This document shows, one piece after another, positions 2,812 through 23,574 of a stretch of 26,257 nt of DNA (position 1 is its first letter; each line of letters starts with the position of its first letter). Where the stretch lies: the IMG/VR virus record IMGVR_UViG_3300045999_004258, positions 1 through 26,257 of that record. One strand, written 5' to 3'. Made by a program: the position numbers and the translations under genes. Below the pieces are notes generated by a model, which saw nothing but the letters and a program-made list of their open reading frames with translations, had not been told where the DNA came from and did no database searches. Source of the stretch: a virus.

Positions 2812-2937
2812 ATGGCAACTTGCAGTAAATGTGGGACACAAGTAGGGTGTGGGTGTCAACTAAGACAAGGACTTTGTGGTGCTTGTTATTCTTTAGTACA
2901 TAAAATAAAAACTTTTTGTTTAAATGTTATATCCTAA
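2812..2937 (+). CDS. 41-aa Cys-rich zinc-ribbon-like peptide
   Basis: A short gene starting MATCSKCGTQVGCGCQ and ending CLNVIS, TAA at 2935-2937. Its cysteines are at residues 4, 7, 13, 15, 22, 25 and 36, in the order CxxC, CxC, CxxC, which suggests a small zinc- or disulfide-stabilised fold. The start sits 8 nt after the previous stop behind AATAAATAATATG, and the stop overlaps the next start (2924) by 14 nt, so it fits tightly into the operon. Similar tiny Cys proteins with a GCGCQ-type core are, as I remember, common beside structural genes of Bacteroidota phages. The function is unknown; an assembly cofactor or a small virion component are options. Confidence 0.72.
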   Translation: MATCSKCGTQVGCGCQLRQGLCGACYSLVHKIKTFCLNVIS

Positions 2938-4549
2938 ACAAACCAATTGTTCATGTGCAGAAAATGGAAATATTGATTCATTAATATCTTCCATAGACTG
3001 TAGACTTTCTAAATTAGCAAACACTATGTTTAATAATACAGTGTTTATGCTAAATAAAACTATTTCTGGTACAGAAATATTTGATTTAATACAATACAAA
3101 AGAATTCTATATTACAAACAAATCAATCCTGATTATGTAGATTGTTTTTCTGTAAATCAAATTGTTTCACAAGTAAAAAGATTTACAGCTAATTGTACAG
3201 GTAACTGTAATGATAGCAATATTTTTCCAGCTCCTCCAATAAGAACAACTACAACAACTTCTTCTACATCAACAACAACAACTACCACTTCCTCAACAAC
3301 TACTACTACTACTACTGTTACTCCTTCTACTAATTATAGTGTAATAGGATGTGATATACCTGAATACCATGTTATAACGTATACTGGTGGAGGTGTATTA
3401 TTTGGAGGAGATATTGTAAGTAATAATAATTCTGAATGTTGGTTTATACTTGAGGAAACAATAGCTCCAGCAGATATTGGAACTGTTGATACTATATATG
3501 ATAGTTTTAATTGTGAACTTTGTATAAGTTCTAATACAACTACCACCACAACTACAACAATTCCCCCCACTACTACTACAACAACTACAGTTGAAATAGT
3601 TAATTACATTTATAGAATAGGACTATTTACTTGTGATACATGTGAACCTAATGGATCACTTCTAATATCATATGAAGAATCTTTAAATGTTGGACAATTT
3701 TATTATGATGCTTTTATTGGACAGAAAATTCAAATATTAGAATTTATTAGCACATCAAATATTCCTACTACTTTTAATATAAATACAGCAACAGAAGAAT
3801 CTACTTGTGAGGCAGTAGTATGTCCTCCAACAACAACAACCACAACTACAATAGCACCTACTACAACTACTACCACAACAGTAACACCTACTACAACAAC
3901 AACTAGTACTACTTCAAGCACAACTACTACTACTACCACAAATGTTTGTTGTCAATTAGAAGATGTAACAATAGGAACACAAACTTGGACAGCGTGTAAT
4001 CTTAGTGTAACCACCTACAGAGATGGTACTCCAATACCTCAAGTGACTGACCCTGATCAATGGATAAATTTAACTACAGGAGCTTGGTGTTACTATAACA
4101 ATGATCCTGCTACTGAGTGTACATATGGTAAACTTTATAACTGGTATGCTGCAGCAGGAATACATGACAATGACCCTGGTACTGGAAATAAAATACTTGC
4201 TCCAATTGGGTATAAAGTTCCTTCACGTTTAGACTTTGGTATTTTATCAGTTTTTCTAGGAGGAGATGCAGTTTCAGGAGGTCCATTAAAAGAAGCAGGT
4301 TATGATCACTGGATAGCTCCTAATCTAGCTGCAACAAACACTACTGGCTTTACAGCTCTTCCTGGAGGGGCACGTAATAATTTTACTGGGTTATTTAGTG
4401 GTGTTAATTATTGGGGTTACTGGTGGACTAAAGAACAAACAAGTAGTACAAAGGCTTACAATCGTGTACTAAGCTATGGTGATGATGGTTTTAATATTAA
4501 TAATCTAGACAAGAGATTTGGATTTTCAATAAGATTACTAAAAGATTAA
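2924..4549 (+). CDS. Modular tail adhesin: N-terminal anchor, Thr linkers, Cys module, FISUMP domain
   Basis: A 541-aa mosaic. Residues 1-107 form an anchor-like domain (IDSLISSIDCRLSKLANTMF, LIQYKRILYYKQINPDY) that probably attaches it to the virion. Linker 108-135 is Thr/Ser. Residues about 137-204 are a small domain with GGGVLFGGDIVSNNNSECWF. Linker 205-222 has eight Thr, IPP, then seven Thr. Residues 227-300 are the Cys module shared with two other genes (LFTCDTCE start, STCEAVVC end). A long Thr/Ser linker follows. Residues 342-541 are a FISUMP (Fib_succ_major, PF09603-like) domain with DVTIGTQTWTACNL, YRDGTPIPQV, GAWCYYNN, GKLYNWYAA, GFTALPGG and a GFSIRLLKD end. FISUMP domains are found in secreted Bacteroidota and Fibrobacter proteins and are thought to be C-type-lectin-like. 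It overlaps the Cys peptide gene. The likely role is binding host surface glycans; that is inference. Confidence 0.8.
   Translation: MLYPKQTNCSCAENGNIDSLISSIDCRLSKLANTMFNNTVFMLNKTISGTEIFDLIQYKRILYYKQINPDYVDCFSVNQIVSQVKRFTANCTGNCNDSNIFPAPPIRTTTTTSSTSTTTTTTSSTTTTTTTVTPSTNYSVIGCDIPEYHVITYTGGGVLFGGDIVSNNNSECWFILEETIAPADIGTVDTIYDSFNCELCISSNTTTTTTTTIPPTTTTTTTVEIVNYIYRIGLFTCDTCEPNGSLLISYEESLNVGQFYYDAFIGQKIQILEFISTSNIPTTFNINTATEESTCEAVVCPPTTTTTTTIAPTTTTTTTVTPTTTTTSTTSSTTTTTTTNVCCQLEDVTIGTQTWTACNLSVTTYRDGTPIPQVTDPDQWINLTTGAWCYYNNDPATECTYGKLYNWYAAAGIHDNDPGTGNKILAPIGYKVPSRLDFGILSVFLGGDAVSGGPLKEAGYDHWIAPNLAATNTTGFTALPGGARNNFTGLFSGVNYWGYWWTKEQTSSTKAYNRVLSYGDDGFNINNLDKRFGFSIRLLKD
3602..3823 (+). repeat. 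74-residue Cys module, copy 1
   Basis: Residues 227-300 of the 541-aa adhesin. It shares with copies 2 and 3 an aromatic start, a C-x2-C pair (CDTC), an FYY or FYQ motif and a C(E/I)xxxC end directly followed by a Thr linker. The protein-level similarity is clear but the DNA has diverged. Confidence 0.75.
3829..3942 (+). repeat. Longest Thr-codon linker tract
   Basis: A low-complexity stretch of ACA/ACT/ACC codons with interspersed IAP, VTP and Ser codons, joining the Cys module to the FISUMP domain. Similar tracts lie at about 2092-2155, 3245-3325, 3536-3592, 5755-5820, 6123-6146, 6372-6395, 6869-6892, 7215-7235, 15175-15225, 15454-15477, 16287-16360, 16791-16815 and 17515-17587. Synonymous Thr codons are mixed, so perfect trinucleotide repeats are rare. 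Confidence 0.85.
3947..4549 (+). repeat. FISUMP domain copy 1 (paralogue of 15481-16041)
   Basis: About 200 residues. Both copies share CCxLxDVTIGTQxWTACNL, TYRDGTPIP, NLTTGAWCYYNN, GKLYNW, TGFTALP and a RLxKD end. The first 75 residues are close; the stretch between GFTALP and the C-terminal GF differs in length and sequence. Confidence 0.82.
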
Positions 4550-5687: not shown

Positions 5688-6599
5688 ATGTTTACAGGGT
5701 TTATAAAGTGTGATTGTAATGGAGTGTGTGTAGAAGTTAATCCTTTTATATGCACTACCAGTACTAGTACCAGTACTACAACAAGTACTTCTACAAGCAC
5801 CACTACAACCACAACTACTATTGCTATAACTTCTATATGTTTTTGTATTCACTTAGAAGGTGGGGGCTGTGCATATCAAGTAGAATTACCAATATTAGGA
5901 AATGCACCTTTTCAAAATGGTAGACCTGTTTACAACATTACAGGAGATGCAAATGGTACTGTATATTATAATGGTACTCAATGGATTTATGCTTCTGAAG
6001 AAAATGCTCCTTTATTACAACCATTACTTAATTCTAGTTATTATCCTATTGGTACTTATTCTGAATGGGGTGAAGTAGATACAACATTTTTTATGAACTC
6101 AAGTACATCAGGACCATGTTCTACTACAACCACTACCACAACTACAGCATGTAATAGATGGCAATATGAATATCTTTCTTACACTTGTACTACATGTGAA
6201 ATTATAGAATATAGTTCTTTATATAACTCAAACCCTTTAACTTTAGATAATTTTTACCAATATGGGGATATAGTTATAACTCCTTATGCATATTTAGGAT
6301 GTGATACAGGAATAAGTGATGCATCTATTCCTGATACAGGAGTGGCAACTTGTGAAGAAATTAATTGTAATACTACTACAACCACCACTACAACAAGACC
6401 TAAAATTTGTGGAATTGTTAGTATGCAAGCATCGATAATAGAAGGGGGAAGCTGGTCTGCATTAGATTGTTTAGGAGAAAGTGTAGGAGGGTTTATACCT
6501 TCACCAGATACAATAGATACACCCTGTATTGAACTTGATACACTTGTATTAGTAGATGCTTTTGAAAAAGGAATAGTTGATTGTGACACACCAACATAA
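5688..6599 (+). CDS. Modular Thr-linked tail adhesin with Cys module
   Basis: A 303-aa mosaic. A short Cys-containing head (MFTGFIKCDCNGVCVEVN) leads into a Thr/Ser linker at about 23-45. Residues about 48-144 are a domain with NGRPVYNITGD, YYNGTQWIYAS and a GPC end; I do not know its family. An eight-Thr linker (146-153) leads to the shared Cys module at 155-227 (CNRW start, SYTCTTCE, EEINC end). A second Thr run (229-236) precedes a last unidentified domain of about 65 residues (GSWSALDCLGESVGGF). The start is set by the ATG one base after the previous stop, which suggests translational coupling to the collar fibre. The protein lacks the anchor of the 541-aa adhesin, so it may dock through its short N-terminus. 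A receptor-binding role is inferred. Confidence 0.75.
   Translation: MFTGFIKCDCNGVCVEVNPFICTTSTSTSTTTSTSTSTTTTTTTIAITSICFCIHLEGGGCAYQVELPILGNAPFQNGRPVYNITGDANGTVYYNGTQWIYASEENAPLLQPLLNSSYYPIGTYSEWGEVDTTFFMNSSTSGPCSTTTTTTTTACNRWQYEYLSYTCTTCEIIEYSSLYNSNPLTLDNFYQYGDIVITPYAYLGCDTGISDASIPDTGVATCEEINCNTTTTTTTTRPKICGIVSMQASIIEGGSWSALDCLGESVGGFIPSPDTIDTPCIELDTLVLVDAFEKGIVDCDTPT
6150..6368 (+). repeat. 73-residue Cys module, copy 2
   Basis: Residues 155-227 of the 303-aa adhesin: CNRWQYEYLSYTCTTCE start, SNPLTLDNFYQYGD middle, YLGCDTG and a CEEINC end. It is flanked by eight-Thr runs on both sides, so it looks like a cassette. Confidence 0.78.
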
Positions 6600-6644: not shown

Positions 6645-6863
6645 ATGACAGTATTTATAACATTAACAACAGCAGGAGCAGACAGTGGTCCTTTTAATTT
6701 ATATTCAGATTTAGATGGGTTTGTTACACCATTTGAGGTAGGAGTATCTAAACTAGATTTAGAAGCTGGATACTCAACTGGATTAGCTCCTGATTTTACA
6801 TCAGTGGTTAGAGTATTATCAACTTCTCAATATTGTATTAATTATGTTGATATAATCTTAACT
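6645..6863 (+). repeat. AGxxxGPF domain copy 1
   Basis: Residues 1-73 of the 198-aa adhesin. Shared pattern with 17599-17814: (I/F)xLTxAGxxxGPFxxxxx, a Leu-x-x-Gly turn, and an LxST(S/G)xxC motif near residue 60. A domain placed first in both proteins. Confidence 0.7.
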
Positions 6864-7241
6864 GAACCAACAACTACCACGACTACTACTATTACTGTAC
6901 CTTTTGGAAATTCATTAGGGTTTCCAGGGCCAGATACTTGTACAAGTGTTACAGTTACTTCTGGGTTTACAGATGGTGGGGGTACTTTAACTCAACGAGG
7001 GATATGTTATAACACAACTGGAAACCCAACTATTGCTGATTCTATATTTATTGGACCAACTGTTACAGGTATTTCAAGTGTTACTGTTACAGGTTTAACT
7101 CCTAGTACTACGTACTATTGGAGAGCATATGCTATTAATGAAATTGGTGTTGGTTATTATCAAACTGTTTTAGCTGATCCAACAGGATTTAGTTTTTCAA
7201 CAGACCCTTGTCCTACTACAACAACTACTACAACATTATAA
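6645..7241 (+). CDS. Modular adhesin: AGxxxGPF domain, Thr linker, fibronectin III-like domain
   Basis: A 198-aa protein. Residues 1-73 carry the pattern FITLTTAGADSGPFNLYSD, which recurs at the N-terminus of the gene at 17599. A seven-Thr linker follows (EP then T x7). Residues about 87-188 look like the fibronectin type III-like repeat of Bacteroidota surface proteins: GTLTQRGICYNTTGNPTI, VTVTGLTPSTTYYWRAYAIN and a final FSTD. The protein ends CP, seven Thr, Leu: a linker with nothing after it. The gene is followed directly by tandem hairpins and is the last of this transcript. The probable role is host-surface contact or display as a short decoration protein; the trailing Thr run may be a relic of a lost domain. 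Confidence 0.75.
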   Translation: MTVFITLTTAGADSGPFNLYSDLDGFVTPFEVGVSKLDLEAGYSTGLAPDFTSVVRVLSTSQYCINYVDIILTEPTTTTTTTITVPFGNSLGFPGPDTCTSVTVTSGFTDGGGTLTQRGICYNTTGNPTIADSIFIGPTVTGISSVTVTGLTPSTTYYWRAYAINEIGVGYYQTVLADPTGFSFSTDPCPTTTTTTTL

Positions 7242-8602: not shown

Positions 8603-9331
8603 ATGTCAACAGGAAGAAAATTAGTATCAGATGTTAGAGCAACTCATAAGTTGCTTTCAACTGATTCTTTAATAACAGACAGAGCTATACTAAGTGAAAT
8701 AAGAAACAATTCTTTATTGTTAATCAAAAGAGAAACAAATCTTAGAAAACTTTGGGCTACAGATACATTATTTACAACAATTCCTTGTTTAGAAATGACA
8801 GAAGTTCCTTTATCTGAATGTTGTGATTATGTAGACGAATGTACAATAGCTAGGAGCAAAGAAAAACTTCCAAGGATATCAGAAGGTAATTATCAATATG
8901 TTATTCAAGGAGTGTACTCTATTAATGCCCTAGGGGGTAAGGCTACAAAGTTTAAAGAAATATCTGTTAATAGATATACAAATCTTTTAAAACTTCCTAT
9001 AATTAAAAAAGAAGCTTATTTCTGGATATCAAATGGATATTTATATATAAGTAATCCACTATTACAAGCTGTTAGATTTGTTGCATTTTTTGAAGAAGAT
9101 ATTCCTAATAGTATTATGTATTCAGAAGATTGTAATTGTGGAAGAAATTATACAGAAGATGATATATGTATAAATCCTTTAGATAAGAAGTTTCCTCTTC
9201 CAGGATATCTAGAACAACAAGTGTTACAACTAACATCACAAAAATTATTATCTACATATTTTTCAATAAAAACTGATATAACTGCAGATGGTGTAGATGG
9301 TCAAGCACCTAACACTAAACCAACTAGTTAG
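8603..9331 (+). CDS. Putative tail ring / connector protein (crAss-like type)
   Basis: A 242-aa protein, beginning MSTGRKLVSDVRATHKLLST. The first 60 residues look helical with a conserved-looking IRNNSLLLIKRETNLRKLW segment. A central beta-type part follows (VIQGVYSINALGG, KEAYFWISNGYLYIS), then a Cys stretch (SEDCNCGRNYTEDD) and a C-terminal helix (LPGYLEQQVLQLTSQKLL). This is the build I remember for a ring or tail-tube protein of crAss-like phages located just before the HU/IHF-like gene and the muzzle. It is the only gene in the window ending in TAG. The next gene starts 1 nt after its stop, suggesting coupling. A structural tail role is likely; the exact ring number cannot be told from the sequence. 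Confidence 0.65.
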   Translation: MSTGRKLVSDVRATHKLLSTDSLITDRAILSEIRNNSLLLIKRETNLRKLWATDTLFTTIPCLEMTEVPLSECCDYVDECTIARSKEKLPRISEGNYQYVIQGVYSINALGGKATKFKEISVNRYTNLLKLPIIKKEAYFWISNGYLYISNPLLQAVRFVAFFEEDIPNSIMYSEDCNCGRNYTEDDICINPLDKKFPLPGYLEQQVLQLTSQKLLSTYFSIKTDITADGVDGQAPNTKPTS

Positions 9332-9332
9332 A

Positions 9333-9818
9333 ATGGCAAGAGTAAAGGTGGAGTTCAGGTCAGCAAGTAAAGATAACTATACAGCATTTTGTAAAGCTTA
9401 TCCTGAAATAAACCTTTCATATAATGACTGGAGAATCATAGTATATTCTTTTAATGAAGCATTTAGAGATTATATCCTTGAGACTGGAGAAAAAATAAAA
9501 CTCCCTTGTGGCTTTGGAGAGTTTTCCATTAACAAGAAAAAAAGAAGGAAGATGAAGAGTAATGGAACAAAAGAGTTTATTAATCTTCCTATTGATTGGC
9601 AAAAAACTAAAGAAAAAGGAAAAGTTATATACAACTTTAACTACCATACAGAAGGATTCTTTTTTGGTTGGCATTGGTTTAAAGACCCTGCTAGATTTAG
9701 ATTTTCAAATTTATGGTATTTTAAACCACTAAGAACAACTTCAAGATTACTATCACACTATATTAAAACTGATAATAAGTATCAACATATTTATTGTGAG
9801 TGGAATATTAAAAAATAA
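9333..9818 (+). CDS. HU/IHF-like protein of the tail module
   Basis: A 161-aa protein from ATG 9333. An in-frame ATG at 9297 would lie inside the previous gene and add 12 residues; I prefer 9333 because it is 1 nt after the TAG and begins a conserved-looking MARVKVEFRS. Residues about 28-72 match the HU/IHF pattern: a helix (NDWRIIVYSFNEAFRDYIL), then TGEKIKLPCGFGEFSINKKK with the GFGxF turn at 60-64 and basic residues after it. Residues about 103-142 (NYHTEGFFFGWHWFKD, YYFKP-like WYFKPLRTTSRLL) are an extension not found in bacterial HU, and I associate it with the IHF-subunit family annotated in crAss-like genomes. In those phages such proteins sit among tail genes and may be structural tail components rather than nucleoid proteins. 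Confidence 0.78.
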   Translation: MARVKVEFRSASKDNYTAFCKAYPEINLSYNDWRIIVYSFNEAFRDYILETGEKIKLPCGFGEFSINKKKRRKMKSNGTKEFINLPIDWQKTKEKGKVIYNFNYHTEGFFFGWHWFKDPARFRFSNLWYFKPLRTTSRLLSHYIKTDNKYQHIYCEWNIKK

Positions 9819-9823
9819 AAACA

Positions 9824-10789
9824 ATGAGCTTCTATTATAAGTATAATTTTATTAGTCCTGAGCCAGTTTACTCAACAGTTAAAGAAGAGCTCAAGAGCTA
9901 TTTTGACACAGGTGCAGTAGATGATTTGCTATTCCCTACATACTTAGACAAGTGTCTAAAGAAACTAGGAAAGTCAAGTTATGTTATAGCTGAGACAGCT
10001 CTTCATATAGAAGACTTTGAAGCACGTCTTCCTGATAACTTTTATGCTGTAAGAGAGGCTTGGATGTGTGCAGAAATACCTTTACTACCATATCAATCAG
10101 CAAATTCTTTTTATTCTCAAACAGGAACTACAACAATACAAATAGCACCTATTACATTCAATGGAACTCCATGTACAAATTCAGGTTGTACAACAGGATG
10201 TACAGAATGTATGCCAAATATTGTACAAGCTGTATACAAAACTAATACACAACAAGCAAGATCATACAAACAAGCTTATTTACTTAAACCTGGTAACATA
10301 TCTACAAGACACAATTGTGATGTTAATTACAGTAGTAATTTAGATTTGTATGGACAACATCATAATGCTACAGGCAATGTTCCTTTTGGTTCTGCATATG
10401 ATTCTTTTGATGTAAGAGGTAATAAATTTGTTACAAACTTTAGGACAGGGGTTGTTCATTTAATTATGTATGCTACAGATTATGATGAAATAGGAAATCA
10501 ATTAGTTCCTGATAACTATCGTATTAGAGAATATGTTGAGCACTTCATTAAATACAAAGTTTTTGAAATGTTAACTAATCAAACTAATGATGAAACATTT
10601 AATCAGTTACAACAAAAACTTCAATACTATAAATCTTTAGCAGATGAAGCTTACATAATGGCTGAAATGGAAATTAAAAAGCAAGATGTGTATACAAAGA
10701 TGAATAGAATGAAACAGCAATTAAATAAGTTTAATATGTATGAACTTCCCAATCGTACAAATAGATATGGTAGAAGACGTAATAATTAA
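9824..10789 (+). CDS. Putative ring / tail-stabilisation protein (crAss-like)
   Basis: A 321-aa protein. The N-terminal half has the pattern VKEELKSYFDTGAVDDLLFP, KCLKKLGKSSYVIAETALH, and LPDNFYAVREAWMC, which I recall from the tail-stabilisation-like (P22 gp4-like) or ring protein of crAss-like phages. A Cys-rich loop (CTNSGCTTGCTEC, about residues 118-130) interrupts it and could bind metal. The second half ends in helical, Gln/Lys-rich sequence (FNQLQQKLQYYKSLADEAY) and a basic tail (RTNRYGRRRNN). It lies between the HU/IHF-like gene and the muzzle, spaced 5 nt from each. It is expected to form part of the ring stack joining portal and muzzle. The family call rests on pattern memory and context. 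Confidence 0.72.
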   Translation: MSFYYKYNFISPEPVYSTVKEELKSYFDTGAVDDLLFPTYLDKCLKKLGKSSYVIAETALHIEDFEARLPDNFYAVREAWMCAEIPLLPYQSANSFYSQTGTTTIQIAPITFNGTPCTNSGCTTGCTECMPNIVQAVYKTNTQQARSYKQAYLLKPGNISTRHNCDVNYSSNLDLYGQHHNATGNVPFGSAYDSFDVRGNKFVTNFRTGVVHLIMYATDYDEIGNQLVPDNYRIREYVEHFIKYKVFEMLTNQTNDETFNQLQQKLQYYKSLADEAYIMAEMEIKKQDVYTKMNRMKQQLNKFNMYELPNRTNRYGRRRNN

Positions 10790-10794
10790 TCATT

Positions 10795-13700
10795 ATGGCA
10801 GACGAATTAGATCAAATTAAAAAAATACTTGGTGGTGATCAAAGTAATGTAAACCAAGAATATAATACAGCTTCTTCAGGCCTTAATATGGATCAATCTG
10901 TTAATCAGATTCCTAAAGGCTCATTAACATATGCTCTTAATGCTAATATGGAAAACTTTGATGCTAACTCAACTAGCTATCAAAATGAACCTGGTAATGA
11001 GTTTTGTTTACAGTTTCCTTCAGACTATGTTCTTATAGGAAGTCATTTTATACAAGAAAAAAGTAAACATATATTTTTTATTACTAATCCATTAACTAAT
11101 GATTCCCAAATTGGTTACATGGATAACAATGATTGTATTTATCGTATTTTCATATCTGCACCTTGTTTAAATTTTAATGTTAAATATCCTATCAATAAGA
11201 TTGTACATAAGATTACAAATTGTACAACAGAAATTTATTGGACAGATGGACTTAATCCTAGAAGATATTTAGACTTAAACCCTGATACTATTCCTTATAT
11301 ACTTTCTTCTTTTTCAGATGAATGTAATCTTGTATTTACAGATGAAGTTGATTGTAATCAATTAAAGTTACAACCAAACTTTAATATACCAAATATTGAT
11401 GTTTTTGATGTTGTTAGTGGAGGAAACTTAACAGCAGGAACTGTACAGTTTGCTATTCAATATGCTGACTCATCTGGTAATCCATATACATCATACTATT
11501 CAGTTACTAATCCTTGTCCTATTGCTGATATACAATTAACAACCCCAAACTTTAATTATAATGTAGGGAAGTCTGTTATTCTAGAGATATCAAATTTAGA
11601 CTCTACAGGACAGTTTCAATATTACAACATGGCTGTTATTAAAACAGTGAATGCCATATCATCTGTAGAACTAATAGGAACATACTTTATAAACAACCCT
11701 GTAGAAAGACTTACATACACAGGACAAAATGTAACTAACATACGTTTAACTATAGCAGATATATTTGAAAAACAACCTTACTATGATATTGCTAATGATT
11801 TAACTTCTGTACAAGATATATTAGTATGGAGTGATCTTACAACTATAAGTAAAGTGAATTATCAATCTATAGCAAATCAAATAGATCTTCAATGGGAAAC
11901 TTGGAGAATACCTGCTACAGAAAATTATTCTGATGAATTAAACGCAACAAACCTTAGAGGGTATTTAAGAGATGAAGTTTATGCTTTTGAAATAGTTTTC
12001 TTATTAACAAATGGAAGACAAACAGAAGGATTTCATATTCCTGGAAGACAAAAAAATTCTAGTGAAGCCTACCCTGATGTACCAACTACTAATGATGATT
12101 TTATTGGTAATCCTGAATCTTATAACTCAGCAGAAACAATAGGATATAGTCCTTATTGGAAAATATATAATACAGGGTATGTTATAGGAACTTCTGGTGG
12201 ATATAATTCTACAGAATCATATAAAGGTCCATATAAGTATGGAGGGTTTGCTTACTGGGAGTCTGAAGATTTATATCCTTGTGTAGAAGAAATTTGGGGA
12301 GATTTAGCTGGAAAACCAATTAGACATCACAAATTCCCAGATGTACTTGTAAGTCCAATATTTGAAGAAGATCAATTTGGTGGGCTTAGTAGTATGCAAA
12401 TGGGCCCCAGAGCTATATTTCCTATGGGAGTAAAAATTGATGTTGGGCAAATTGCAAACATAATAAACTATTCCTCACTATCTACAGAACAAAAAAATGA
12501 CATTGTAGGGTTTAAAATAGTAAGAGGAGATAGAGGAACAAATAAATCTATTATTGGAAAAGGTATTCTTAGAAATGTAGGAGAATACAAAAGAGAAGAA
12601 CAATCATTCTATTTTCCAAACTACCCCTATAATGATTTAAATGAAGATCCTTTTCTTACAGATACAAATAACAAATTTGGAGACGTACCATTAGTATGGC
12701 TTATATTATGTTCAATATCAGGATTTTATGAGTTTACAAGCACTGTAACAGGTCTTCCTATTAAAAAAGAAATGTTTGCTGGACAAAATTATGAAGAGTG
12801 TTCTTTAACAAAACCTACATCTTTATCTGGAAGAGCTTGTATTGGTCCAGGAAACTTTGATGCATATTATATTAATAATTGCTCTTTCGAAACAGATTTT
12901 TACGCAGGAAATATTGTAAAGTGGACTTGTAATAATACTGCAGAGAGAGAATTATCTACAATTGTTTGGCAATATGGCACTATTAGATGTTTTAATACCT
13001 ATCTCTCAGGATTTAATCCTGGAGATAAAATTATTAATACTGCCACAGGTAGTATTGTTCCAGGAGCATTCCTTCAAGAATCTGTAGAATGTGATTATGG
13101 ACAATTACCTAATCCTAGTTTAACGTGGAACTACCAGACAAAAGGTAGGAGATCAAAACTTGTTTCTTGTAAAAAACCAGAGGCTTTACAAGCCAATGCT
13201 AATGAAGAAACAAAATATAGACAAATATTTAATTCTCCAGAAACATCTTTTGGTCAACCATTTCTTGGAAATGTTTTAAAACTAGAAAATGTTATTTATG
13301 GAAAGGGGCAAGATCATTTTATACAAGTTAGAGATAATGCTAAATATAGGCTGCTCTCTAAAGAAGCGCAAAAAGATGCATTAGATAGCAGTTTTGGTTT
13401 AGGTGGAGGTACAAATTATACTGCAGTGTTTACAGCATACCAAGCATATTTAACTATTTATATTAATGGTATAACAAGAAAAAATTATGCTTATTCGTAT
13501 AACTCTAGAGCTGATTATAATTATAAAGCTAATATTGATAATAATTTAGGAATAAAACAAAGAGAAATTGATTTAATTTCTTATTTAATTCCTGGAGTAC
13601 AAAGTGTTGGAGACAATTATAATATTAATAATTTTCAAAGAGAGTCTTCTGTTTTTATTAAAACAATAGAAGATAGAGTTGTTAATAATAATCCAGCAAC

Positions 13701-16041
13701 AACAGTTAATGCATTAAAGTTTCCTAGTCAAGTTCCAGATATGCTTAACACTTCTGGCCAACCTATTGTTGTAGATAAATCTAGAACTACAATTTCTTTA
13801 AGTGGTAGATGCGAGACTCCTGCTAAAGAAGATGATATTCAAGTAGTTTCATATTACGCTTCTTTAAAAAATGTTATACCAAATCAATGGGGACAGATAT
13901 ATACATATAAAACAATTGACACAGGTTTTCAAAGAATTAATTTTAAAAATGGTTCTGAATCTGCTACAATTTTTGGAGGGGATACCTTTATATCAAGGTT
14001 TGCTTTTAAAACTAAACTACCTTTTTTTATTGATAATAGAGTTAATGCCCCTGATGATTCAGATATATTTTATGATGAAATAGGTAATGTAGCTTATCCA
14101 AAATATTGGCATTCTGCAAGATCTATTCTTGAGTCTTATATTAGTATGAAAAATATTATTTCATATAAAGCTACTAATTTTGACTGTCCTAATGTTCCTG
14201 GGAATATAATAGGACAAACAGGGGTAGCAGGAACATATAGAACGTATTATGATGGATATTTTTATTTATTTGCTTATGGTGTTCCTAATTTTTATTGTGA
14301 AACTTCTTACAATTTAGATTTAAGACAAGCTTTTAATAATAAAGAAGGAGATTTTTGGCCACATGTATCTACAGGTATTCCTGATGACTGGGTACAAGAA
14401 AATTATGTATCTATAGCAAATGATAATACATATACATACAATACAACATTCTCAAAACAAAATACAGAAAATGTATTTACACATCTTCCAGATGATTTTA
14501 AAGATGAGTTTTGTTTAACAAACTTTCCTTTTAGAGCTATATATTCAGAGTTACAAAATACAAACGCTGATAGTAGAATTAATAATTGGTTGGTTTATAA
14601 ACCATTATCATTCTTTGATTTTCCTCAAAACTATGGAAAGCTTACATCATTAGATGGTATTCAAAACAAAGCTGTATTAGCAAGGTTTGAAAACAAATCA
14701 TTGTTATATAACAATCTATTGACAGTGGATACAAGTAATCCACAATCAGCATATTTTGGTAATCCTTCATTATTTAAAGGAGCACCACCAATAGATTTTG
14801 CAGAAACAGATCTTGGATATGTAGGAAGCCAGAATAAGTTTTTATTAAAAATTCCTCAAGGACAAGTAACAGTTGATGCAAAAAGAGGACAAGTGTTTCT
14901 TATTGAAGGAACACAAGTAGCAGATCTTTCAGCATTTGGTTCTGGAATGAATAGATTCTTTACAGACCATCTAGCATTTGAAATGCTTAGATATTTTCCA
15001 GAAGTTCCTACAGATAATCATTTCACAGGAATTGGTCTACATGGAGTGTTTGATAGTAAGTTTGAAAGAGTTATTATAACCAAACTTGATTATATTCCTA
15101 TAGATAAAGATGTAAAATATGATGCTGATAAGAATGAGTTTTATATAGAAACAATTACATATATAGATGCTGCTACAACTACTACATCAACTACATCAAA
15201 TTTAACTACAACTACTACCACTACAATTTGTACATCTTGGAGATATTCAATAGATTGGATTTATTGTGAAAATTGTACACTATCAGGACCAGCAGTTATA
15301 ACTAATTCTGAACCTTTAACATTGTATAAATTCTATTATCTTAATGGATTTAAAATAGGAATAAAAGAATATTTAGGATGTACTAACACTGTTGCTGAAT
15401 ATAATATATTAAATTCTTCACAAGAAGATGTTTGTATTGATGTAATATGTCCTACAACCACAACCACTACTACAACAAATTGTTGTACACTTCCTGATGT
15501 AACAATAGGTACGCAGATATGGACAGCATGTAATTTAGATGTAAGTACATATAGAGATGGTACACCTATTCCTGAAGTTCAAGATCCTACAGAGTGGGTT
15601 AACTTGACAACAGGCGCATGGTGTTACTACAACAATGTAGATGATAATTGTTATGGCAAATTGTACAATTGGTTTGCAGTTAATGACTCTCGTGGTTTAG
15701 CACCAGTAGGATATCATATACCATCTAAAGCTGAATGGGATACATTAGAAGCATTTTTACCTGCTCCAGAAGGAGGAAGTTTAAAAGAAGTAGGAACTGC
15801 TAACTGGAATCCTCCTAATGCTTTAGCAACAAATAGTACAGGGTTTACAGCTCTTCCTAGTGGCACTAGAGATGAAGTAGGTAACTTTGATTGGGAAGGA
15901 GATTATGGTAATTGGTGGACAACTACAGCATCATCTAGTACAAATGCATGGACTTATTATACATATACACTTGGAGGAGGACTTCCTGCAACAACTACTA
16001 GAAAAGTTAGAGGATTTGCAGTTAGACTTATAAAAGATTAA
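10795..16041 (+). CDS. Muzzle-type tail protein, N-terminal part, fused to Cys module and FISUMP domain
   Basis: A 1748-aa protein. Residues 1 to about 1460 resemble the large muzzle protein of crAss-like tails: an opening with SGLNMDQSVNQIPKGS (28-43), ALNANMEN (47-54), NEPGNEF (64-70), then a beta-rich body ending GIGLHGVFDSKFERVIITK. In the usual single-chain form the next conserved element would be the FCNKSWTxS and WxSFHSYxPNxY region, but here that is in the next gene. Instead the chain continues with a Thr/Ser linker (1461-1477), the shared Cys module (1479-1552), eight Thr, and a FISUMP domain (1563-1748; DVTIGTQIWTACNL, GAWCYYNN, GFAVRLIKD end). The FISUMP domain is paralogous to that at 3947. 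The muzzle forms the distal tail and controls DNA exit; the added domains probably contact the host surface. Confidence 0.8.
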   Translation: MADELDQIKKILGGDQSNVNQEYNTASSGLNMDQSVNQIPKGSLTYALNANMENFDANSTSYQNEPGNEFCLQFPSDYVLIGSHFIQEKSKHIFFITNPLTNDSQIGYMDNNDCIYRIFISAPCLNFNVKYPINKIVHKITNCTTEIYWTDGLNPRRYLDLNPDTIPYILSSFSDECNLVFTDEVDCNQLKLQPNFNIPNIDVFDVVSGGNLTAGTVQFAIQYADSSGNPYTSYYSVTNPCPIADIQLTTPNFNYNVGKSVILEISNLDSTGQFQYYNMAVIKTVNAISSVELIGTYFINNPVERLTYTGQNVTNIRLTIADIFEKQPYYDIANDLTSVQDILVWSDLTTISKVNYQSIANQIDLQWETWRIPATENYSDELNATNLRGYLRDEVYAFEIVFLLTNGRQTEGFHIPGRQKNSSEAYPDVPTTNDDFIGNPESYNSAETIGYSPYWKIYNTGYVIGTSGGYNSTESYKGPYKYGGFAYWESEDLYPCVEEIWGDLAGKPIRHHKFPDVLVSPIFEEDQFGGLSSMQMGPRAIFPMGVKIDVGQIANIINYSSLSTEQKNDIVGFKIVRGDRGTNKSIIGKGILRNVGEYKREEQSFYFPNYPYNDLNEDPFLTDTNNKFGDVPLVWLILCSISGFYEFTSTVTGLPIKKEMFAGQNYEECSLTKPTSLSGRACIGPGNFDAYYINNCSFETDFYAGNIVKWTCNNTAERELSTIVWQYGTIRCFNTYLSGFNPGDKIINTATGSIVPGAFLQESVECDYGQLPNPSLTWNYQTKGRRSKLVSCKKPEALQANANEETKYRQIFNSPETSFGQPFLGNVLKLENVIYGKGQDHFIQVRDNAKYRLLSKEAQKDALDSSFGLGGGTNYTAVFTAYQAYLTIYINGITRKNYAYSYNSRADYNYKANIDNNLGIKQREIDLISYLIPGVQSVGDNYNINNFQRESSVFIKTIEDRVVNNNPATTVNALKFPSQVPDMLNTSGQPIVVDKSRTTISLSGRCETPAKEDDIQVVSYYASLKNVIPNQWGQIYTYKTIDTGFQRINFKNGSESATIFGGDTFISRFAFKTKLPFFIDNRVNAPDDSDIFYDEIGNVAYPKYWHSARSILESYISMKNIISYKATNFDCPNVPGNIIGQTGVAGTYRTYYDGYFYLFAYGVPNFYCETSYNLDLRQAFNNKEGDFWPHVSTGIPDDWVQENYVSIANDNTYTYNTTFSKQNTENVFTHLPDDFKDEFCLTNFPFRAIYSELQNTNADSRINNWLVYKPLSFFDFPQNYGKLTSLDGIQNKAVLARFENKSLLYNNLLTVDTSNPQSAYFGNPSLFKGAPPIDFAETDLGYVGSQNKFLLKIPQGQVTVDAKRGQVFLIEGTQVADLSAFGSGMNRFFTDHLAFEMLRYFPEVPTDNHFTGIGLHGVFDSKFERVIITKLDYIPIDKDVKYDADKNEFYIETITYIDAATTTTSTTSNLTTTTTTTICTSWRYSIDWIYCENCTLSGPAVITNSEPLTLYKFYYLNGFKIGIKEYLGCTNTVAEYNILNSSQEDVCIDVICPTTTTTTTTNCCTLPDVTIGTQIWTACNLDVSTYRDGTPIPEVQDPTEWVNLTTGAWCYYNNVDDNCYGKLYNWFAVNDSRGLAPVGYHIPSKAEWDTLEAFLPAPEGGSLKEVGTANWNPPNALATNSTGFTALPSGTRDEVGNFDWEGDYGNWWTTTASSSTNAWTYYTYTLGGGLPATTTRKVRGFAVRLIKD
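15229..15450 (+). repeat. 74-residue Cys module, copy 3
   Basis: Residues 1479-1552 of the muzzle fusion: CTSWRYSIDWIYCENC start, SEPLTLYKFYYLNG middle, YLGCTNT and a CIDVIC end, closest in pattern to copy 2 (PLTL.xFY, YLGC). Thr runs lie on both sides. Confidence 0.78.
15481..16041 (+). repeat. FISUMP domain copy 2 (paralogue of 3947-4549)
   Basis: About 186 residues at the C-terminus of the first muzzle gene. It lacks the insertion of copy 1 (AAGIHDNDPGTGNKI region) and has its own variable loop before GFAVRLIKD. Both copies are at the protein C-terminus. Confidence 0.82.
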
Positions 16042-16043
16042 TC

Positions 16044-17594
16044 ATGGAACAAGAAGGTAAAATAAAAATTGTAACAAGAACTCCTGTTAGTTTAACAGAT
16101 CCAGAATTTTTCTGTAATAAATCTTGGACTGTTTCATTTAACATGAATACAAAGACTTGGACATCTTTTCACAGCTACATTCCTAATTGGTATATAGGGG
16201 ATAATAATTTCTTTTATTCAGGTCTTAATAATTGTTGTAACGATATAGACGCTGATTTTACAGCATTAGTTGGTAGACTTGATAGAACAATTACCACTAC
16301 TACTACAGCAGCTCCTATTCCTCCTAGTACTACATCAACATCTACAACTATATTTACAGTAGACTGTACATTGATTGGAACAGCTTTTGAGGTATCTTGT
16401 GATTTAACTGGTACAGGAATAATAACAGTACCTCCAACTACAACAACAACTTTATGCCAAAGACCTTCTTGGTTAGTGTCTTATACATTATATAATGGAT
16501 ATGAAATAACAGGAGAAACACCAGTAATTACTTCTTCATCTTTTGAAGTATTATGTGAATCATTCCCTATTATATTAGCTCCAACAGAAAAAACATTAAC
16601 TAGTTTTACTGCTATGTCTACAAACTCAGATAGCCTAGAAGTGGGACAAGTATTATATAATACTGATTATCTAACAGATTGTTCTTTAGTTGCAGATGGT
16701 TGGTATTTTGATTTAAACAGTTTTATTAATAATACCACTTATCATGTAGTAAATGGTGTAGTTACTGAAATTGTAAATTGTGATTGTGGAACTACCACTA
16801 CTACAAGCACTACAATATTTATTCCTGAATGCTGTGGAGTGGTGATATTATCAAATGATGATATGTACTTATTGAATACACTATCAGGATATACTACATC
16901 TATATTAAACATTCCAAATTTTATGGCTGCAAATGGTTTAGCAATGACACCTTTATTTATATGGAGTGTAGATAATACAGAGTTTAGACAATGGGATATA
17001 ACATTAGATCCTTTCACTGCAACATATAATAGAGAAATAGCTTTCCCAATGGGATATGTACCAGGACCAATAACTGCTTTAAATAATGATGTATTGATTT
17101 GTGTAGATAATGCTAGTGCTCCAGTTAGTGTTGACATTGTTGAGATGGATGTAACAGATGTAATAGGAGTTAGTACACTAATACTTTCAATACCAGATAT
17201 AACAATAATTTCAAATTTATTATATACCTTTGAAGGTAAATTAATATTTGCTAATCAAGATTTAATATCTGGAGATACATATATATCTCAGTATGATTAT
17301 GCCTCTACAACTCTTGAACTTTATATCAATCTAGGTTCTACTGTTGTAACTTCTATGTTTGAGTGTGATTGCGCTATATTCTTTACAGATGATAACAATA
17401 TAGCATACAACATTAGAAGAGAAAGTCCTTATGATATTACAGAAGTGGGAACTATAACTATTCCAGTTATTTCAGCTACACAACCTAACAGTTGTATTCC
17501 TAATAATTTAGAACCTACTACTACTACGACAACAAGCTCTTCTACTACCACCACAAGTTCGTCTACAACAACAACCACTACTACAACTCCTTAA
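16044..17594 (+). CDS. Muzzle middle fragment fused to Thr-linked domains and a propeller-like domain
   Basis: A 516-aa protein starting 2 nt after the previous stop. Residues 1-81 carry the conserved middle of muzzle proteins: SLTDPEFFCNKSWTVSF (16-32), WTSFHSYIPNWY (39-50) and FFYSG (56-60). Then come a Thr linker (82-106), a tiny Cys module (VDCTLIGTAFEVSC), another Thr run, a domain of about 110 residues ending LVADGWYFDLNS, YHVVNGVVTEIVNCDC, a Thr linker from residue 250, and residues 263 to about 483 that look like a beta-propeller (FRQWDITLDPFTATYNREI, ALNNDVLICVDN, LLYTFEGKLIF). The chain ends in Thr/Ser runs and a Pro with no domain after them. It cannot form a muzzle alone, so it is expected to assemble with its neighbours. 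The added domains suggest sugar or protein binding. Confidence 0.78.
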   Translation: MEQEGKIKIVTRTPVSLTDPEFFCNKSWTVSFNMNTKTWTSFHSYIPNWYIGDNNFFYSGLNNCCNDIDADFTALVGRLDRTITTTTTAAPIPPSTTSTSTTIFTVDCTLIGTAFEVSCDLTGTGIITVPPTTTTTLCQRPSWLVSYTLYNGYEITGETPVITSSSFEVLCESFPIILAPTEKTLTSFTAMSTNSDSLEVGQVLYNTDYLTDCSLVADGWYFDLNSFINNTTYHVVNGVVTEIVNCDCGTTTTTSTTIFIPECCGVVILSNDDMYLLNTLSGYTTSILNIPNFMAANGLAMTPLFIWSVDNTEFRQWDITLDPFTATYNREIAFPMGYVPGPITALNNDVLICVDNASAPVSVDIVEMDVTDVIGVSTLILSIPDITIISNLLYTFEGKLIFANQDLISGDTYISQYDYASTTLELYINLGSTVVTSMFECDCAIFFTDDNNIAYNIRRESPYDITEVGTITIPVISATQPNSCIPNNLEPTTTTTTSSSTTTTSSSTTTTTTTTP

Positions 17595-17598
17595 TACT

Positions 17599-17814
17599 AT
17601 GCCAAAAGTTGCAACCATAAAATTAACAAGAGCTGGATCTACTGCAGGCCCTTTTACTATATCTACAGAATATGGAGATGTGTTAGCAACTAATGTTTCT
17701 AGAAAATCTTTAATATTGGGAGTTAATTATATTGTAGATGATAATGTAAAATTTATAGTTTTAGAATCTACAGGAAAATGCAAGATTAAAAAAATATTTC
17801 CTTTAGAAATAATT
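17599..17814 (+). repeat. AGxxxGPF domain copy 2
   Basis: Residues 1-72 of the third muzzle gene, matching the start of the 198-aa adhesin. Here it is joined directly to muzzle sequence without a Thr linker. Confidence 0.7.
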
Positions 17815-18465
17815 AGTATATATCAATATCAAGATGCTACATATACACAAACTTCTACAGCTTGCTTATGGAGACATCTTACAAACATTCAATTGTATAA
17901 TACATACTATGGAAACATAGAACCATACATTATTGAATACCCTTTTGCATATCAATACCAAGATGAAATAGTTCAGAATGTAAAAGACTATACAAAAGCA
18001 TTTGAATATCTTCCTATTCCTGATGGTGTGTTTAATGATAACACAAGAATAGAAGTTGATAACAAATGGTTTACACATGCTATTCTTTATAATGGACAAC
18101 AGAGTTCTGGATTATTAGAACTTGTTCCTAAACCAAAGAATAACTTACAAGCATATAATAAATACCCTATATACAATACAGATAGTAAAACAATAACATA
18201 TACTAAATCAGATAACTTCTATCAGTATAATACATTCTGGGCATTACAGAAAAGTCCTTACATTCCAATGTTTTTTACAAGCTGTGAAAGCTTATCAATA
18301 GATAAAGTGATTAATCAAGAGAATATGGATTATTCTACACGCTCATTTAAAAAAGCTACAATAAGAGCTAAAGAATTAAAAATAAGACATATATTAAAAG
18401 ACGATTGTACAACACACTTGGTGAGTCAGTTTATTATTTCACCATCACAAATCTCTTACAAGTAA
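17599..18465 (+). CDS. Muzzle C-terminal fragment with AGxxxGPF N-terminal domain
   Basis: A 288-aa protein starting 4 nt after the previous stop. Residues 1-72 form the AGSTAGPF-type domain (IKLTRAGSTAGPFTISTEYG, LESTGKCKI), paralogous to the start of the gene at 6645. Residues about 90-288 match what I remember as the C-terminal part of crAss-like muzzle proteins: CLWRHLTNIQLYNTYYG (89-105), PYIIEYPF (109-116), ILYNGQQSSGLLELVPKP (162-179), DNFYQYNTFWAL, IRAKELKIRHIL and a final SPSQISYK. With the two preceding genes this completes one muzzle in three chains. The gene is 1 nt from the following cargo gene. A separately evolved structural protein is the alternative; alignment of the three chains to an intact muzzle would decide. 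Confidence 0.76.
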   Translation: MPKVATIKLTRAGSTAGPFTISTEYGDVLATNVSRKSLILGVNYIVDDNVKFIVLESTGKCKIKKIFPLEIISIYQYQDATYTQTSTACLWRHLTNIQLYNTYYGNIEPYIIEYPFAYQYQDEIVQNVKDYTKAFEYLPIPDGVFNDNTRIEVDNKWFTHAILYNGQQSSGLLELVPKPKNNLQAYNKYPIYNTDSKTITYTKSDNFYQYNTFWALQKSPYIPMFFTSCESLSIDKVINQENMDYSTRSFKKATIRAKELKIRHILKDDCTTHLVSQFIISPSQISYK

Positions 18466-18466
18466 T

Positions 18467-21400
18467 ATGAAAGGAAAAGTAAATTGCACATGTGGATGGA
18501 GTTGGAACAAATCAGATTCCAGTGCTAAGGATATGTACATATGTCATGAGTGTGGAAGAGATAATTCTAACAACATGAAGAATGGTGGATGGTTAAATAG
18601 TTATCAAAATGGTGGTGATACTGATAATGAGGATTACAATATGAAAAGAGCTCTAGAGCTTGGTTACACTCCAGATGATACAGGACATTGGCCTTCAGTT
18701 GATTATGAAACAGGAGAATGGTTAAAATCTAAAAAACATCATACTAGAGGTATGGAAATGATGGCTTATGAACTTAATCCTGAGCTTCGTAATAAGTATA
18801 ATCTTATAGAAAATGAAAAAGGTGTTTTACAATATGTAGATAAAAAAGACTTTAAAAATGGTGGATGGTTAGATCAATATGCTAGTGGAGGAACAATGCA
18901 AGAATACCAAGAGAATTATAATGATTCAAAAGCTACAGCTTCTCCAGATATGGTAGGAGATGGATTCTCTAATGTAGGACGTAATTATTCTCCTGCATGG
19001 GGAGGACAGTTTGAAGATGGAGGAGAAATTCCTAATGCTCAAAAAGGAAAGAAAGTTAAATATGTAGAATCAGAAAATGATCCTAGATATAAAGCTTTCC
19101 AAGATAGTTTGTTAGCTTATACAACTCTTGATAAATATAAAAATATTCCTAAAAATATACCTTTTAAAAAAGAAGATGAAAAGAATATAAGAAAAATATG
19201 GGCAAGTAACTTAGAACCTTTAGCTCGTGATTTTAGTAATCCAAGACCTCTTACTGATAGAAGTAATGGTAATATAGAAAGAGCTGATTATTTTACACCT
19301 ACTAAATATAAAAAACCACAACAACAAGTAATAGTAAAAGAACAAGAAAAAAGAAAACCTGTAAAAACAATACAAAACAATCTACAACCAAAAGGATTAA
19401 TACAAAGTGATGCAAAATTAAATACTGATATAAAAGGATTAAAGCCACAAGTAAGACAACCTAAATATTACGATATACAAGAAAATATAAATCAACCATT
19501 TGGAGCATATCAAAATAATTATAGAATTTCTGATTTAAATAATATAACAAGTCCTGATGATTTAGGTCCTGGTAATACAAGAAAGATTACACCTCGTTAT
19601 CAAGATGGTGGTAATACAGAAGCTGCAATGCGTGGAATGATGAAGTCTAAAATAGGAATGGGTAATGCTTTTGGTCATCCTGCTATTAGAAGAATGTCAC
19701 AAGCTATGCCTAAAACAGGAATGACTCCTGAAGGAATAGGAACACATTATATGTCATCTGTAGATAATTACGCTGTACCATTATTACAAGATCTTGGTGA
19801 AGAAGAATTAATACTAGTAGATCCTGATTCTAGAAGTAGAGAAGCAATTAGATTTAACTCTCCTGAAGAAGCACAGTATTTTGCAGAGCATTATAAAGAT
19901 GTAGCTCCAATGAGTAATACATATAAAGGATTACAAGAATATGCAATGGGTGGATCTATTCCTCAAGCTCAAAATGGTAGAGCTACAAGAGCTGATAGTC
20001 TTGCTGTATTTAATAATACAAAAGCTATAGATGATTATTTTAAAAAACAAGGGTATACAAAAGAAAAAGTTAAAGATTCAAAAATTTATAAAGAAAGAAT
20101 AAAAAATTATAAAGAATGGGTTACTTCTGCTCAAAAATATTTAAAAGAAGCTAAAAATGAACCAGTTAATACTTTTTATACACAAACAGATAAAAATAAA
20201 AATATTGCAGAACAAAAAAAATTTTTAAAAGAAGCACAAAAAAGACTTTATGAGACTATTGATAAGAATAACCCAAAAAACTATATTAAAAAATTAGAAG
20301 ATTCTAAAAAAATTTTTGAAACAAAAGAAAAAGATGTAGGTAGATATGTAGATGAACAAAATAATCTTGTAGAAGGAAAACCTTCTGTAGAAAAGTTTTA
20401 TTTACCTGTAGATGAAAATAAATTTTATCAAAGAGAACAATCTCAAGGATTTTTAGATTTAAGATCACCAATGCCTCTTTATGATAAAAGAATTACTCCC
20501 CAAGATTTATCTACATTTAAATCTCCTGATTCAGTTTTAGGTGATCAGTTATTGGATAAAATAATTAAATCAAAAAACAAAAAAGAAAAAGAAGCATTAA
20601 AAAAACAAATGGATGCTCTTGTTTATTCTGACAATGTAGAAATGTATGAATACGATCCTATTGCTATAATGCCTTTTGATATGGTTCCTCCTGAACTACA
20701 AGAGGAGAGAATTAGAAAATATGGAACAGAGGGTGTACCAGCAAGTTTTATAGAACAACATCCTGATTGGGTTGCAAAACCTATAACAGATTCTGGACAA
20801 AGACAACCTATACAAGCAATACAAAACAATCTAAAACCAGAAGGTTTAATACAAAGTGATGCAAAATTAAGTGCTGATGCCTTAACCTTACGTCCAAAGA
20901 TAAATCAACCTAAATCTTTTGATGTTACTTCTCAAAGACAAACTATGTCTGGACCAAGTGATTATTATGATTATGATCAACAAGGACTTAGTGCAGAACA
21001 AGTAATGGAAATTCAAGCTAGTGCTGATAAATATAATAGAGGTGTTATAGATAAGTATGGAGAAGCAGCTAAAACAAATCTTAAAGCAAAACAAAGATTA
21101 GATCAGTTATTGCAAGATGTAAAACTAATTCCTAATTATGCAATGGGTGGATCTATTCCAGGCTCTGTAGGATTTACATATGCTAGAACTAAAGGAATAC
21201 CATCTAATGGTCCTTATGCTAAGAAAACTCTTGCTAGTGCACAGAATGGTGTTGATATGTATGGCAATCCTATTACTGCTGATTTAAAATATGATCAGTC
21301 TGTAAATAGAACAAATTATAATCCAAGAACTAATCAAATGATTTTTGGAAATGATATGCCTTATTTTGTTTCTCAAGAAAAAATAGATAAAACTCTAGCG

Positions 21401-23572: not shown

Positions 23573-23574
23573 TC

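Follow-up and report, generated by a model that had tools for sequence, protein, structure and literature searches.

A crAss-like phage muzzle encoded by two or three neighbouring genes in a large uncultured group

The locus and its three muzzle genes

The stretch of DNA analysed here (the window) is a viral record of 26,257 bases with 31% GC. Three consecutive open reading frames, p1, p2 and p3, occupy exactly the coordinates and are separated by exactly the gaps (2 nt and 4 nt) that an earlier note on this sequence had given, and the motifs quoted there are all present. Each of the three frames ends with TAA. The order ring protein 2, HU-like gene, ring protein 1, muzzle is the order found ahead of the muzzle gene gp44 of phicrAss001 (crAss001), in which the ring proteins have been assigned (PMC10172136). 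The features of the locus are listed in Table 1.

Table 1. Muzzle genes, break sites, added domains and related genes in the window.
Feature	Position	Strand	Basis or remark
Separate Thr-linked gene ending in Cys module-Thr-FISUMP-stop	2924..4549	+	PF09603, E 3.9e-34; order as in p1 payload
Separate D-domain Thr-linked fibre-like gene	6645..7241	+	D profile, E 6.5e-6; in-genome paralogue of the domain added to p3
Ring protein 2	8603..9331	+	PF25702 CrAss_Ring_2, E 4.3e-19
HU-like gene	9297-9818		between ring protein 2 and ring protein 1
Ring protein 1	9824..10789	+	PF24228 CrAss_Ring_1, E 2.3e-9; directly upstream of the muzzle as in crAss001
p1, N-terminal muzzle chain	10795..16041	+	1748 aa; core, residues 1 to ~1456; collinear with intact muzzles
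Break-1 payload, first part	15172..15498	+	Thr linker, Cys module, Thr linker; sequence
Break-1 payload, second part	15499..16035	+	FISUMP (Fib_succ_major), PF09603; ends at p1 stop
Break 1	16039..16046	+	TAA, 2 nt, ATG; propeller beta-hairpin turn, gp44 residue ~1197/1198
p2, middle chain	16044..17594	+	516 aa
p2 head	16044..16229	+	~62 aa; sole muzzle part of the middle chain
Break-2 payload	16230..17591	+	Thr-linked modules at p2 C terminus, ~450 aa; last module ~16818-17516
Break 2	17592..17601	+	TAA, 4 nt, ATG; tight turn EFYAFK/DGKMW of gp44 (~1232-1239)
p3, last chain	17599..18465	+	288 aa
D domain (AGxxxGPF)	17599..17847	+	83 aa, added at p3 N terminus; predicted to fold alone, pLDDT ~88
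p3 core	17848..18465	+	C-terminal muzzle part

The earlier note had taken p1, p2 and p3 for the pieces of one muzzle chain, and an alignment to intact muzzles bears this out, since the three matches are collinear and abutting. With PHROG 15100, residues 28-421 of p1 align at 11-418, residues 23-62 of p2 at 1546-1585, and residues 86-286 of p3 at 1586-1781. The unsplit muzzle of phage Lbo-JY46 (1654 aa) is matched by p1 40-1452 at 24-1405 (in two main pieces), by p2 3-61 at 1397-1455 and by p3 84-273 at 1457-1638, with E-values ranging from 1e-97 to 6e-9. The p1 core, the p2 head and the p3 core are also collinear with the muzzles of phi17:2, csAssE-Sib and Fpv1. Homology therefore runs in the right order along the whole chain. 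The description of p2 as the middle of the muzzle is correct for about 60 residues, the p2 head; the rest of p2 is not muzzle.

By direct sequence match, the profiles of p1 and p3 gave no significant hit in the PDB; a PADLOC search with p1 also gave no match. The structure was therefore approached via an unsplit relative, L169. For a model of its C-terminal 484 aa, the best PDB matches were the muzzle of phicrAss001 (7qol, 7qok; E 9e-10, probability 1.0), followed more weakly by the T7 nozzle. The fold of the solved muzzle was thus found on an unsplit relative and not on the split chains themselves. When p3 was predicted alone, residues 1-80 reached a pLDDT of ~88 and the p3 core mostly 24-52; the stretch corresponding to the p3 core within L169 reached ~57-93 over most of its length. 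Because the two predictions differ in their alignments (38 and 67 rows) and chain lengths, this comparison supports co-folding but is no proof of it.

The three reading frames with their TAA stops depart from the single polypeptide chain of the known muzzles. As split muzzles make up 139 of the 155 distinct relatives sampled and are homologous over their full length, the multi-chain state was taken as a variant of the family and not as a ground for exclusion. Of the marker genes of the order Crassvirales, neither TerL nor portal nor major capsid was recognised in the window, and the listing of the closest genus in culture, Lightbulbvirus, places it outside Crassvirales.

Two long genes lie 3' of the muzzle (18467-23572 and 23551-26256, the latter running off the window end) and possibly encode cargo proteins. 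They repeat short motifs, for example GGWLxxY and MGGSIPxAQNG, and gene 18467-23572 is strongly rearranged among relatives. Upstream of the muzzle, genes 957-2159, 5688-6599 and 6645-7241 have Thr-codon linkers or Thr tails like those of p1 and p2, which suggests that the structural cluster draws on a shared pool of modules.

Break sites and added domains

The break positions were determined from an alignment of 16 sequences. Break 1 falls between ...DVYFTY (gp44 residue 1197) and KDHCLCYSE..., and site 2 follows about 45 residues later; ordinary strand sequence is kept on both flanks of each cut. In unsplit relatives, 2-10 aa lie between the anchors flanking site 2. In the L169 model, site 1 is a turn (231-232) between strands 227-230 and 233-235 with a pLDDT of ~92, and site 2 (~279-285) is a low-confidence loop, that is, a flexible turn. 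The proposal that the chain is interrupted at exposed loops is consequently upheld in so far as both breaks are predicted at turns of the propeller region, with a confident hairpin at site 1 and low confidence at site 2. The first junction, AAAGATTAATCATGGAACAAGAAGG, is identical in the relatives L009 and L002 and differs by one base in L182. This recurrence in independent contigs contradicts the possibility, considered beforehand, that the stop at 16041 is a sequencing error.

The Thr linker, Cys module and FISUMP that p1 was said to gain at break 1 are seen in the window, the match of PF09603 covering p1 residues 1569-1747 (E 3.5e-38). The Cys module is only 64% identical to that of L009, and the flanking core is ~95-98% identical at the DNA level. 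FISUMP is C-terminal and at most 5 aa away from the stop codon in 13 of 13 copies. As it was never found internally, a free end may be required for this module. The FISUMP of the separate gene 2924-4549 is ~50% identical to that of p1, and relatives without break 1 have FISUMP in other genes. FISUMP is a known type of DGR target (PMC4159848). A DGR as the source of FISUMP variation was rejected, because no RT above the cut-off was present in 21 contigs, ten of them of ~110-117 kb; in the window, no TR-like repeat of the FISUMP region was found.

The AGxxxGPF domain that the last piece was thought to acquire at break 2 is present at the start of p3 and is referred to as the D domain. Every one of the 216 break-2 loci has it on p3, and all 19 unsplit muzzles lack it; nearly all break-2 loci have a p2 payload as well. 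The D domain is also the N-terminal domain of other Thr-linked genes, among them 6645-7241. A PDB search with the p3 model yielded no significant fold for it. The propeller postulated in p2 (~259-502) could not be substantiated: profiles of the last p2 module gave nothing credible in Pfam or the PDB. Among the payload-2 regions of relatives, one of 52 matches the DUF5122 beta-propeller family (E 2.2e-46), and some p2 payloads of relatives may be propellers. For most p2 payload modules, no fold could be assigned. The statement that each break carries extra domains thus applies to both breaks of the window, but in relatives not always to break 1.

In 17 of the 139 split relatives, p2 and p3 lie more than 540 nt apart with another ORF in between, and 16 of these 17 ORFs have a D-type start. 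Coupled translation, which had been proposed on the basis of the short gaps, is therefore not needed; close spacing is general in the gene cluster and is thus weak evidence for coupling. In L010, p1 comprises 2202 aa and ~1.26 kb lie between the p1 stop and the p2 start; there may be an extra gene at site 1 of this locus, as at site 2.

Split and unsplit relatives

Three scans of viral contigs and the annotated phage records were surveyed, and distinct cores with all three anchors were counted. The resulting 155 distinct relatives comprise 16 unsplit loci, 113 that are split at site 2 only and 26 that are split at both sites; none is split at site 1 alone. The sample is biased towards split loci, as p2 and p3 supplied two of the queries; a p1-only query gave 60 split loci among 73 complete ones. 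A viral-contig scan with the C terminus of Lbo-JY46 found no relatives. Fused and split versions, for which the earlier note had advised looking, hence both exist. The core tail gate, which is one long protein elsewhere, is made by two or three neighbouring genes in a large uncultured crAss-like group, and we regard this as a genuine, clade-wide variant of the crAss-like muzzle, with two or three chains in place of a former single one. In each of ten contigs of 110-117 kb there is a single p1 core and a single full p3, so that no muzzle besides the split one was seen in these near-complete contigs.

Break 2 requires two changes on the tree, because the unsplit close relative L169 is placed in an unresolved basal fork; a smaller tree requires one change, with a support of only 79. 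Break 2 has probably a single origin. Break 1 corresponds to eight changes on the tree, and well-supported branches force six, be they gains or losses. In 18 of the 26 break-1 loci at least 150 aa are held at this site; ten of these large payloads are FISUMP and the remaining eight differ. A clade of ten loci is split at site 1, and several of its members lack FISUMP, having in its place no more than a short Thr tail, or else a different payload. In these members the break is kept, and a scar is left ahead of the p2 start: AAAGATTAA, which derives from the KD-stop codons and agrees with the FISUMP gene end of sister loci. In L023 (2403-7659), break 1 has no payload and the p1 end overlaps the p2 start; this bare break may be a clean split of natural origin, or else the assembly is wrong here.

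For the comparison of the window with three close relatives, dN/dS values were 0.04-0.09 for the last 300 core residues of p1, 0.02-0.05 for the p2 head and 0.06-0.11 for the p3 core. All pieces of the muzzle core are under purifying selection. The corresponding values for the added parts were 0.22-0.29 (payload 1), 0.11-0.44 (payload 2) and 0.23-0.33 (D domain). In 328 pairs with a core identity of at least 0.88, the median identity of payload 2 was 0.56. Judged from such comparisons, the payloads vary, are exchanged between relatives and are often swappable. For example, the DNA identity of the window and L002 drops to ~0.5 at 16435-17575 and is near 0.9 again thereafter, with the edges at Thr-codon tracts. 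The modules on either side of this exchange are homologous, so that it looks like an allele replacement. Based on a few pairs, the Thr tracts may have served as crossover points.

Origin of the breaks

The muzzle of phicrAss001 is a hexameric tail-tip gate with inserted domains (PMC10172136; PDB 7qok, 7qol). It belongs to the same family, as judged from sequence collinearity, the order of the genes and the match in structure, but gp44 is one chain of 1371 aa and has no insert at sites 1 and 2; variation of muzzle length has been reported for the crass and IG2 domains (PMC10172136). Closer homologues than gp44 are the muzzles of the Cellulophaga phages phi4:1 (gp42) and phi17:2 (Lightbulbvirus) and of the epsilon phage csAssE-Sib. 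A large in-frame insert is present at site 1 of the phi4:1 and phi17:2 proteins, and phi4:1_gp42 was confirmed as a virion protein by MS/MS. The muzzles of this set differ from the split muzzle in being single chains (2289 and 2257 aa) without D domain or breaks. The T7 nozzle and P22 gp10 (tail stabilisation) share the propeller and the ring-joining architecture, but match the structure more weakly and lack the crass fold; neither is known to be split. The long tail fibre of T4 (gp34-gp37) is a virion appendage assembled from several chains of adjacent genes. However, it consists of end-to-end rods and not of a single globular domain interrupted inside a beta-propeller. The open-access literature searched contained no earlier account of a split muzzle.

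It is quite probable that p1, p2 and p3 fold into one tail-tip muzzle subunit, whose breaks stem from the ends of fibre genes captured at two turns. Co-assembly of the three chains is likely. It is improbable that p1 alone is the muzzle and that p2 and p3 are separate virion proteins located elsewhere in the particle. The existence of three ORFs, the mostly non-muzzle content of p2 and the additional ORF that 17 of 139 relatives have between p2 and p3 would agree with such an arrangement, but the p2 head and the p3 core correspond precisely to what p1 lacks of an intact muzzle and show low dN/dS values; moreover, the ten near-complete contigs contain no second full copy, and the p3 core is predicted poorly on its own. 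A rejoining of the pieces by splicing (group I intron or intein), readthrough, frameshifting or bypassing is very unlikely. Introns, inteins and recoded stops do occur in structural genes of Zeta-group crAss-like phages (PMC7886860, PMC12386605), and the fragmented genes resemble the split muzzle in that a conserved phage gene appears as several ORFs. Those fragments are rejoined by splicing (PMC7886860), whereas the split muzzle has no intron signature: no Rfam match was found in the window or in five relatives, and the sequence in between is an open, coding one whose dN/dS stays below 0.45. Furthermore, the stops are TAA, p1 and p2 are in different frames and thus cannot be joined by readthrough of a single stop, and a whole gene lies between p2 and p3 in some relatives. 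That the locus is an assembly artefact or a decaying pseudogene has a negligible probability; although the record is a metagenomic contig and no cultured split member was found, the same junctions occur in independent contigs, 139 distinct loci are split, and purifying selection is strong.

The view that splitting is what allows the display of domains finds no support in this form from the comparison with relatives: phi4:1/phi17:2, Fpv1 and L135 hold in-frame inserts at site 1 within one chain, and several lineages keep break 1 after most of the payload has been lost, the break of L023 being payload-free. A narrower version, according to which domains captured with their native gene end bring the break along, fits better. 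The split might instead be a neutral by-product, in which the chains co-assemble without any display advantage and a stop plus start within a hairpin is rarely rejoined; this is compatible with co-assembly and rivals the display rationale only. Because breaks persist without payload, we consider it a serious possibility, albeit one with a somewhat less than even chance. The scar and break retained in FISUMP-less members of the ten-locus clade, the bare break of L023 and the in-frame site-1 inserts of unsplit relatives are in its favour. It is opposed by the large payloads in 18 of 26 break-1 loci, by the regular occurrence of the D domain and nearly always of a p2 payload at break 2, and by the strictly terminal FISUMP with its possible need for a free end.

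The D-type start of separate fibre genes and the position of FISUMP at its native stop make the splitting look like the capture of fibre-gene ends. According to this capture explanation, the three polypeptides together would be the counterpart of what crAss001, phi4:1 or Lbo-JY46 make as one muzzle chain, and ends of Thr-linked fibre-type genes would have recombined into two propeller turns. A C-terminal module, which is FISUMP in the window, would have come to site 1 together with the stop codon of its gene; the acquisition at site 2 would have comprised Thr-linked modules ending in a stop as well as the D domain from the N terminus of fibres, along with a start codon. The architecture of the loci, and not a traced event, suggests this route with native stop or start codons. 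The added modules would be located on the muzzle surface, and they probably touch the host cell by contacting glycans or proteins, as indicated by the type of domain, its position and the exchange between close relatives. More tentatively, the two propeller turns could be standing cassette sites: recombination would bring the ends of fibre genes, and occasionally an entire fibre gene, into a core virion gene, and two or three interlocked chains would hold host-contact modules directly on the gate. If so, a single subunit could couple binding to ejection.

The multi-chain muzzle illustrates that a virion protein with an essential role can be interrupted inside its fold and yet stay under selection. 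The natural pairs of fused and split muzzles can be used for testing how phages add host-contact domains. In annotation, the middle and last pieces should be named muzzle and not orphan fibre genes.

Two relatives showed further peculiarities. The recorded host of phage Lbo-JY46 (L083, PP438436) is Leptolyngbya boryana, a cyanobacterium, and its muzzle is close to those of Flavobacteriia phages; this host assignment may be questionable. The muzzle gene of L097 (1884-5996, cr109_1) contains 18 in-frame TAG codons, which is consistent with the known stop recoding of crAss-like phages.
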